This document shows, one piece after another, positions 28,058 through 31,000 of a stretch of 64,000 nt of DNA. This DNA comes from Branchiostoma floridae (Eukaryota > Chordata > Leptocardii > Amphioxiformes > Branchiostomatidae): contig NC_049992.1 of NCBI RefSeq assembly GCF_000003815.2, positions 10,495,725 to 10,559,724 of the forward strand, read 5' to 3'. The notes below the pieces were generated by a model, which was not told the origin of the DNA, searched no databases, and saw only the letters and a program-made list of their open reading frames with translations. Made by a program: the position numbers and the translations under genes. The first letter of the stretch is position 1, and the number at the start of each line of letters is the position of its first letter.

Positions 28058-31000
28058 CTATTCCTTGCTGGCCATGTACTGGATGAGGTCGACAACACGG
28101 AAGCTGTAGCCGTATTCATTGTCATACCTGTGGTACAGGAGAAAAACGACAGACATTACGAACTCAGACATACTTATCAAATGTACCTGTGTCATCCTTT
28201 CCATACAGTTTTGTTATTTTTTTCTCTGCATCAAATCATGTTTTAAAACTAAACTTCAGATAAACCACAGTAGGCTCCTCACATTGTTGTGCATAAAACA
28301 CGATTGCGTCATAAGGGGTCCGAACCTGAAATGACCATTTAGACCCTTTACAACTCAGAACAGACTGTAGAAATAGCTAACAACTCAACAAATCCAATTT
28401 TATTACGTGCCTTCGGAGATCATGAACCAATACAAACAAAAGATTTCATGCTGGCACTCTAGCCACTAATACATTTACATATACTTACCAAGAGACAAGC
28501 TTGACAAAGTTGTTGGTCAGTGCGATGCCCGCCTTGGCGTCAAAGATACTGGAGTGGGTGTCGCCCATGAAGTCTGAGGACACCACCTAACATGCAGGCA
28601 TGCAGTTAGTATGCAGGCTCAGGCTAGGTAGCCTCATACATGAGTCGCCTATATCTGTGCGAGACAGACCCATTCACACACACAGACGTAAACACATGTC
28701 ATTCCCTACCATGTGACCAGCTTGACAAAATTATTTGTCAGAGCGATGCCAGCCTTGGCATCAAAGATACTGGAGCGCCCATCCCCAATGAAGTCAGCTG
28801 AGACAACCTGGCTCAGCAGAAGACACCACAGCAGGAGGAAAGGAAGGGTAACAGAAATGTAGGAAAATTCAGGGGAAATAAATATAAGAATGGGGAGGGA
28901 TGATGTGGAAAATAGGAAAAAATAGAAATGAAACAATGATAGAAGTTGAAAGAAAGTGATAGAATGAATATGACAGACGACCAATTGAAAATTAGAGTAC
29001 AGTTGCCTAGATTGTACAGAAAATCAGGAAAAAAAGACAGCTACTGGGACGTAAAACATTCAATATACACAATCACACATGGGTAGTTTAACAACTTAAA
29101 AGATAATACCACATACAGAGGTTCACATCTTACAAAATGTAGCTGATCAGCAGCTGACTATGTATTATCTCCCAGTCAGCCTACAAGATTGTGACTTAAC
29201 TGCAAAAACAAGCTCATTTACAAATCATTAAATTCATTGCTGCCTTGAATACTGAAAACAGAACAATCACCTTGATCTGCGAAGAAAATCTAAGCAATCG
29301 TCACAATTGAACTTACATCCTCATCCGTGTATCCCAGATATCCCTTCAGTGGGCCCTCAGATGCCTTCTTCACCACAGCCTTGATCTCATCATAGGAAGC
29401 CTATGGGGAAGGGGGGGTTAGAATGAATGAAGACCTTTAGTTTATTGTACTTTTTTGCCCAACGAGCTAAGTACAGGTCACAACAAAACATATATATCAT
29501 ACTAAAAGCATCACAGATCTAGTCTAAAACAGAAGTTTGGCTTCTTCTCAAATATAGGAGACTCAGCACATGATAAGTAAAATAAAACTACATACAACTT
29601 GCATTGACTTACATGTTGTTTCAAGAGTGGGCATATGTTAACTTATGAATGGCAGAATGTATATGTTACGTATCAGATTTTCATATGCAAATTGGTGCTT
29701 ACTCCTTTCTTCAGTCGGCAGGTCAGGTCGACCACGGACACATCAGGGACCGGCACACGGAACGCCATGCCTGTCAGCTTCCTGTAAAGATTCCAGAGAG
29801 CTGTTACATGTGGGAAATGTCAGTCCTTCTAGTAGCATCTAGCGGTGCTTAAAATGCTGATAAATAAACTCAGACAAGTCGACTTTGGGGCATTTTAACA
29901 CAAATAACCAGCTGCAGTTAGGGGTTAGGTACCAGTACTGTACTGCAAAAATAAAATTGGTACATGTGCAAAAACACCAGATCAAGAAGTACTGTTACAG
30001 ATTTACTCATTTTGTGACTTAAGATGCGTAAATCCTACCTCAAACACGATAATTCAGCATTCCTCAATAGAGTAAAAGCTGGATAATTGCACGAATTTCA
30101 CTGGCAAATAGGCCGTGCAATTAAGCGGCTTCTACCGTATCATAAAAACTTGACTCACCCGTTCAGCTCAGGAATGACCTTGCCCACAGCCTTGGCTGCC
30201 CCAGTGCTTGCTGGGATGATATTCTGGTGGGCACCGCGCCCGTCACGCCAGGCCTTCGCGCTTGGGCCGTCCACGGTCTTCTGCGTGGCGGTGTAGGCGT
30301 GTACCGTGGTCATGAGACCCTCCTCGATGCCAAATTCATCGTTGATGACCTTGGCCAGTGGGGCCAAGCAGTTGGTGGTGCAGGAAGCATTGCTGTAAAC
30401 AGATTTTATATCAGATTGTCAGGTCACTGTGCACAATATTTCACAAACCAAACTACAAAATTTCTTATCCACTCATCTATCCATCCAGAAACTCAACTAA
30501 CACCTAGTTACACATTTCGATTTAAAAAGTACAGAAAATTGTATACATGTACCTCTTTGTCCGTCTTTTTTCTATGCATAGAGACATCCAGTTTAAGTGT
30601 GGAAACTACCAAGTATACCTTAGACATCTGTACATGTACAAAAACGTATACAAGGTACAGTCATGATTGTACCACTTACTACATGTACGAACTCACAACT
30701 TACTGAATGCAAGGCAAAAGCTCGGCCCACTCAGCCATTGCACCAATTACATATGGAAATATGGGAAAACTGTAGACACAGTGTTTATATTATCCATCCC
30801 ATATTTCCCATATGTAATTGGTGCAATGGCTGAGTGGGCCGAGTGTTCACCTTGCATTCAGTAGGTCGCAAGTCTGATCCCTGACTGGGTCATACCAAAG
30901 ACTTAAAAAATGGTACAAGCTGCTTTCTCTGCTTAGCCCTCAGCATTCTGGAAAGAGTATGGAAGTTGAACACACACCACCACCGGTGGACTAGCCCCCT

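Follow-up and report, generated by a model that had tools for sequence, protein, structure and literature searches.

GAPDH is the textbook example of a housekeeping enzyme with a single form and is often used as an RNA reference. The GAPDH gene of the lancelet Branchiostoma floridae, which carries exon 9 in two versions (here 9a and 9b), raises the question of whether this enzyme is made in two forms by a choice between exons. Mutually exclusive exon pairs are known from PKM, FGFR2, and OGDH, and, as far as our searches show, GAPDH would be new as the host gene of such a pair. We found no description of a GAPDH gene with duplicated or mutually exclusive exons in the accessible text of the open-licence PMC literature, and the accessible main text of two papers on tandem exon duplication leaves GAPDH unmentioned (PMC9741552, PMC9013439). 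We analyzed the window, a stretch of 64,000 nucleotides that contains the gene, and searched its own assembly (513,431,437 bp, 431 contigs). Our main reading, to which we give a probability of roughly 0.7, is that 9a and 9b arose by the tandem duplication, long ago, of one exon and are in use as a mutually exclusive pair, which would yield two enzymes of 334 residues with five differences, all in the C-terminal domain. Directly observed are a homologous exon pair with intact splice sites, the constraint on it, a single detected gene, and motifs in the intervening intron.

The gene has ten coding exons on the minus strand (33458-28058; Table 1). The preliminary description had reported that both versions of exon 9 are 98 nt long, enter in phase 0, leave in phase 2, and have AG acceptors and GT donors, and all of this, coordinates included, was confirmed. 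Translating the spliced frames bore out that either exon alone gives a GAPDH of 334 residues, and both isoforms pass TIGR01534 (NCBIfam, GAPDH-I), at 446.4 bits with 9b and 442.5 bits with 9a against a cut-off of 367.2. The 9b isoform matched 31 distinct GAPDH sequences in the PDB at E up to 1e-150. A search for repeats within 27500-34000 returned six direct-repeat families, the longest being the 9a/9b pair (103 nt with its edges) and the next 28 nt; no third copy of exon 9 was found in 27500-34000 or in whole-genome searches.

Table 1. Features of the GAPDH gene and of the exon 9 region, in window positions
Feature	Position	Strand	Remarks
GAPDH coding exons 1-8	33458-33436, 32701-32605, 32097-31985, 31687-31597, 31229-31114, 30392-30159, 29781-29703, 29400-29317	-	
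Pyrimidine-rich tract before 9a	28809..29008	-	201-nt AG-free zone, save one AG at -6
Exon 9a	28710..28807	-	98 nt, 32 protein letters
9a donor GUAGGG	28704..28709	-	contains UAGGG
Intron separating 9a from 9b	28587..28709	-	123 nt
GU repeat UGUGUGUGUG	28675..28684	-	26-35 nt after 9a
UACUAAC branch-point-like site of 9b	28605..28611	-	branch A 28606, 20 nt before 9b, 103 nt from intron start
Two UGCAUG (RBFOX-type) motifs, UGCAUGCCUGCAUG	28591..28604	-	5-18 nt before 9b
Exon 9b	28489..28586	-	98 nt, 32 protein letters
GAPDH exon 10, coding part and stop codon	28058..28127	-	

Other features of the window surround and interrupt the gene. About 4 kb upstream of its start, on the opposite strand, a 1176-codon open frame (37412-40942, plus strand) has PHD finger, endonuclease, and reverse transcriptase domains and, by its domains, would be a non-LTR retrotransposon. 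A 7-transmembrane receptor open frame (35595-36311, plus strand) matches the secretin family and the slime-mould cAMP receptor family. On the other side, open frames at 22790-26562 (plus strand) look like one multi-exon membrane transporter, presumably SLC45-like, encoded on the strand opposite to GAPDH and ending ~1.5 kb from its stop; 22790-23551 matches MFS_2, and the frame 23703-24608 is without a match. Intron 5 of GAPDH holds an inverted repeat (30691-30873) with 69-nt arms, 87% complementary and 45 nt apart, a putative foldback or MITE-type element within the gene.

As in other tandem-duplicated mutually exclusive exons, 9a and 9b are adjacent and homologous, with the same phase and compatible lengths. 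Joining 9a to 9b shifts the frame, as had been claimed, and a stop falls inside 9b; skipping both exons brings an immediate stop at the junction, so that including both or neither is non-productive. The double-inclusion stop sits 28 nt upstream of the last coding junction. Under the 50-nt rule for nonsense-mediated decay, the transcript would therefore not be removed if exon 10 is the last exon, which makes decay doubtful as a clean-up of double inclusion.

Whole-genome searches placed every GAPDH match at this locus. The DNA of the exon pair had one match, the pair itself; the profile of the C-terminal family PF02800 had three, all inside the gene; and the whole protein had 10 of 10 there, exons 9a and 9b included. 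No GAPDH paralogue or processed copy was detected in the 513-Mb genome by the DNA, PF02800, and whole-protein searches, and no processed copy is thus available among the whole-genome matches as fossil evidence on exon use. The gene in the window appears to be the sole GAPDH gene of the genome, in agreement with the accessible text of PMC3224139, which reports one GAPD for B. floridae, its locus being syntenic with that of human GAPD-1. Because no other GAPDH gene was detected, different isoforms would have to arise by splicing. Some vertebrates instead use paralogous GAPD genes, carrying separate GAPD-1 and GAPD-2 where lancelets are reported with one, as far as the same text goes (PMC3224139). 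Alternative splicing of a chordate GAPDH gene is described for GAPD-2 of Anolis carolinensis, in which, unlike in the lancelet, an N-terminal cassette exon adds a proline-rich domain; no duplicated exon is described there in the accessible part of the source (PMC3224139).

How old is the pair, and has it been kept under constraint? The two exons differ at 21 of 98 nt (77/98 bases identical, ~79%), with 3, 2, and 16 differences at the first, second, and third codon positions. Exactly as first reported, 12 codons differ silently and five with replacement (from 9b to 9a, S283A, M286I, T289G, H290R, and S311T). The preliminary description read this pattern as an old duplication under purifying selection and proposed dN/dS as a check. 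By NG86, with 23.5 synonymous and 72.5 non-synonymous sites, dS is 1.38 and dN 0.090, a ratio of 0.065 between exons that both keep their AG and GT intact; a maximum likelihood estimate gave dS 2.27 and dN 0.084. The flanking introns are no longer alignable, since the observed score was reached by 81% (upstream) and 16% (downstream) of 200 shuffles each. Random placement of 21 changes would replace ~13 residues, and five or fewer were replaced in 0 of 20,000 simulations per exon; the conservation pattern is thus not chance. Age and past selection are in this way upheld, at values with which a recent relaxation, or even death, of 9a is also compatible. It is very improbable that the assembly set two haplotypes or alleles of one exon in tandem. 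Lancelet genomes are highly heterozygous, but the identity of ~79% is confined to the exon, and alleles would have brought their introns along.

A rival reading is that 9a is a relic, used for most of its history and now dead or a source of splicing noise, with nearly all mRNA carrying 9b. Were 9a neutral since the duplication, its own branch should carry ~50 replacements (23 if pS is left uncorrected); the 6.2 observed on both branches together, tested as 7, give P values of 3e-14 and 1e-4, respectively. A loss of constraint in the last quarter of its history is compatible with the data (P = 0.069). If 11 of the changes fell on 9a, five or fewer replacements without a stop have a neutral P of 0.06-0.07 (0.012-0.015 for 13 changes). 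Given the last-quarter value and the ~0.07 for 11 changes, 9a may have died recently. Codon bias gave no significant sign of lower 9a use (GC3 17/32 against 182/268 in exons 1-8, P = 0.11). The relic reading gains from a 9a donor that scores below that of 9b, an apparently distant branch point, and four residues not seen in the aligned GAPDHs (all three given below). Against it stand an open frame, an exact length, two intact splice sites, a GAPDH-I score only 4 bits lower, an R290 and a remainder of the exon as in other GAPDHs, and the unusual UGCAUG pair in the adjoining intron. On balance we regard it as unlikely.

The replaced residues (283, 286, 289, 290, and 311, numbered one higher in 1u8f, which we take to be human GAPDH) set 9a somewhat apart. 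Both exons resemble those of natural GAPDHs: of the 53 distinct PDB sequences that appeared in the searches with either exon, 12 gave the higher score with 9a and the other 41 with 9b, scores that were compared by eye; two more sequences were listed for 9b only. The best matches of 9a were two cytosolic enzymes and GAPC1, presumably from rice and Arabidopsis, with DSRSS and DNRSS in the place of the DGRSS of 9a, a block that we assume to be nearer to plant cytosolic and lobster enzymes. The best matches of 9b were testis-specific GAPDH, with the DTHSS also seen in several other animal enzymes. In the printed alignments of 10 distinct PDB sequences, seven of which reach residue 311, R290 is the only one of the 9a residues to be present; A283, I286, G289, and T311 are absent. 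From 9b, T289, H290, and S311 are present and S283 and M286 absent. The absence of four of the five 9a residues from these alignments points to 9a as the more derived copy, or a specialized one.

The changes had been assigned to the catalytic domain. Their place in the C-terminal domain stands, but the catalytic Cys and His blocks, whose roles we take as given, sit in shared exon 6; the exon choice would therefore tune, not replace, the active site. The DTHSS/DGRSS block presumably takes part in subunit contacts.

The splice signals of the two exons are unequal. With a simple scoring based on approximate human frequencies, the 9b donor (GUAAGU, the consensus) scores 5.0 and the 9a donor 2.7. 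Three donors of the gene fall below this value (1.34 for donor 3, 1.83 for donor 4, and 0.65 for donor 7), and the 9a donor is thus weak, though not the weakest of the gene; the UAGGG within it is presumably an hnRNP A1 type motif. The yUnAy site nearest to the 9a acceptor lies at least 72 nt upstream, by a pattern that is a loose guide (acceptors 4 and 10 are without a match and acceptor 7 has one at -4 only). The AG exclusion zone of 9a, with the AG at -6 set aside, spans 201 nt, against 21-60 at the other nine acceptors. The AG-free run behind this zone is the longest on the minus strand of the window (the plus strand has one of 209), and the absence of AG is only mildly unusual given the G-poor composition of the tract (P = 0.043). 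The zone suggests a distant branch point for 9a, with CUAAU (A at 28992, -185) as a candidate. In human introns, according to the accessible text of PMC1431707, zones of at least 100 nt occur in 838 of 67,334 and zones of at least 150 nt at 165 exons, and exons with a zone of at least 100 nt are more frequently alternatively spliced. The 9a acceptor itself reads GAGCCAG (28808-28814); splicing to the other AG, 4 nt further upstream, would lengthen the exon to 102 nt and put a stop five codons into its frame, which might add noise to splicing.

Do these signals by themselves keep the exons apart? In human OGDH, another metabolic enzyme with a mutually exclusive pair (exons 4a/4b) and distant branch points, the part of PMC7969005 available puts these points 25-41 nt from the upstream donor, where they enforce exclusion, with a threshold of ~50 nt. 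In GAPDH, by comparison, the long AG-free zone precedes the first exon of the pair, and 103 nt separate the 9a donor from the branch A of 9b, more than that threshold, so that exclusion cannot be steric as in OGDH. Since double inclusion gives a useless frame and neither the steric nor the decay route is reliable, regulation must prevent the joining of 9a to 9b.

One rival shares the core of our main reading, with both exons used and exclusive, and differs in the means of choice, which would be a PKM-like repression of 9a by PTB and hnRNP A1, the distance of the branch point, or the structure of the RNA. PKM exons 9/10 (M1/M2) are the closest likeness in kind, being adjacent homologous exons of a glycolytic enzyme, used one or the other, as the GAPDH pair probably is. 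One exon of that pair, exon 9, is repressed by PTB/nPTB and hnRNP A1/A2, as stated in the accessible text of PMC3498831. The pyrimidine-rich AG-free tract before 9a and the UAGGG at its donor would fit such repression, but PTB-type motifs before 9a are not above what composition predicts (P = 0.93-0.96), and PKM is a different enzyme, whereas the most notable motifs of GAPDH are of RBFOX/GU type and lie in the middle intron. A structural switch has in its favor a 351-nt fold spanning both exons (z = -2.1, 4 of 100 shuffles as good); the fold of the intervening intron with short flanks barely beats its shuffles (z = -1.1, 24 of 200 as good), and on these two values we set an RNA-structure switch aside. 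The steric version fails on the 103 nt given above. Choice by any of these means is somewhat less than an even prospect in our estimate. As for PKM itself, the lancelet genome gave seven pyruvate kinase matches, all on one contig (C193). Queries for a duplicated PKM-type exon, made from approximate PKM segments, went unmatched at E up to 0.5 in 24.6 kb of that contig, and in the first 4.7 kb of the region they gave, at E up to 10, only matches of chance level.

The intron between the exons is where the candidate switch lies. Its two UGCAUG copies precede the downstream exon, as in RBFOX-switched pairs; as many per 123 nt occur in 0.25% of equal windows, the own-shuffle P is 0.010, and a single further copy is found across the nine other introns of the gene. 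GUGUG occurs three times in the intron (0.5% of equal windows; own-shuffle P 0.083), and the other motifs have own-shuffle P values of 0.067 (GCAUG), 0.067 (ACUAAY), and 0.077 (UAGGG), UGCAUG alone reaching 0.010. These figures are descriptive, as 12 patterns of short motifs were counted in three regions and were chosen after looking. The GU repeat is, we assume, of CELF, ESRP, or RBM24/SUP-12 type. With an approximate query, three of the 15 RRM matches in the genome lay together on one contig (C171), at 96, 70, and 82% identity, and mark an RBFOX-type RRM encoded there, the remainder being more distant RRMs; a Fox-1_C family search of the genome gave 0 matches, with control families equally silent, and so carries no weight. 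Equal length and phase, splice sites, constraint, frame breakage, a switch-like intron, and an apparently sole gene together support the mutually exclusive reading of the preliminary description and suggest exclusive use.

The UGCAUG motifs resemble those of known switched pairs. The models for egl-15 and FGFR2 set UGCAUG near the downstream exon beside a second, presumably GU-rich element (SUP-12; ISE/ISS-3 with ESRP), and the outcome is the upstream exon. In GAPDH, the GU repeat at 28675-28684 is a candidate for such a second element, with an own-shuffle P of only 0.083 for GUGUG. For Caenorhabditis elegans egl-15, the accessible text describes RBFOX on UGCAUG in the upstream intron as repressing exon 5B and, with the muscle factor SUP-12, favoring 5A (PMC3585155, PMC2880598); within PMC3585155, 5B is said to be selected in the author summary and to be repressed in the results. 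For FGFR2, the part of PMC2880598 available describes reporters in which Fox, acting at UGCAUGCAUG, and ESRP, acting at ISE/ISS-3, repress the downstream exon so that the upstream one is spliced in instead. For exons 7a/7b of unc-32, the portion of PMC3585155 available describes RBFOX together with a CELF protein on a UG-rich stretch of intron 7a; the UGCAUG is in intron 7b, whereas in GAPDH it lies between 9a and 9b. Unlike the housekeeping enzyme GAPDH, the products of these genes are receptors and a subunit of a proton pump, and factor binding on GAPDH is a prediction. Such splicing control does exist in lancelets, since, according to the accessible text of PMC5703972, exons IIIb and IIIc of the sole Fgfr of Branchiostoma lanceolatum are mutually exclusive, and minigenes show amphioxus Esrp promoting IIIb.

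The mechanism that we propose for the main reading makes 9b the default exon: with its consensus donor and a UACUAAC branch point at -20, exon 8 would be joined to 9b and 9a passed over. Exon 9a would be conditional, given its GUAGGG donor and remote branch-point-like site. Where RBFOX and a GU-binding partner of ESRP, CELF, or RBM24 type are active, they would bind UGCAUGCCUGCAUG and the GU repeat, block the branch point and acceptor of 9b, and promote 9a, which would then be joined to exon 10. For this RBFOX and GU-factor mechanism taken alone, we would put the chances a little short of even. The use of 9a, its exclusivity, the factors, the tissue, and the differences between the enzymes are all what we infer from the genomic sequence.

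A further, tentative proposal, to which we lend rather less than even belief, is that this animal obtained tissue-specific GAPDH isozymes by exon duplication, without a second gene, under the RBFOX/GU-factor switch of FGF receptors, and that the swap of DTHSS for DGRSS tunes the stability of the tetramer, its affinity for the cofactor, or a role outside glycolysis. If both forms are made, GAPDH levels could be misread with primers that sit in exon 9. Vertebrates with GAPD-1 and GAPD-2 set against a lancelet with a sole gene would make gene duplication and exon duplication testable side by side in one enzyme. If our main reading is true, a lancelet that chooses between exons to make two GAPDH forms would provide a counterpart to PKM within glycolysis.
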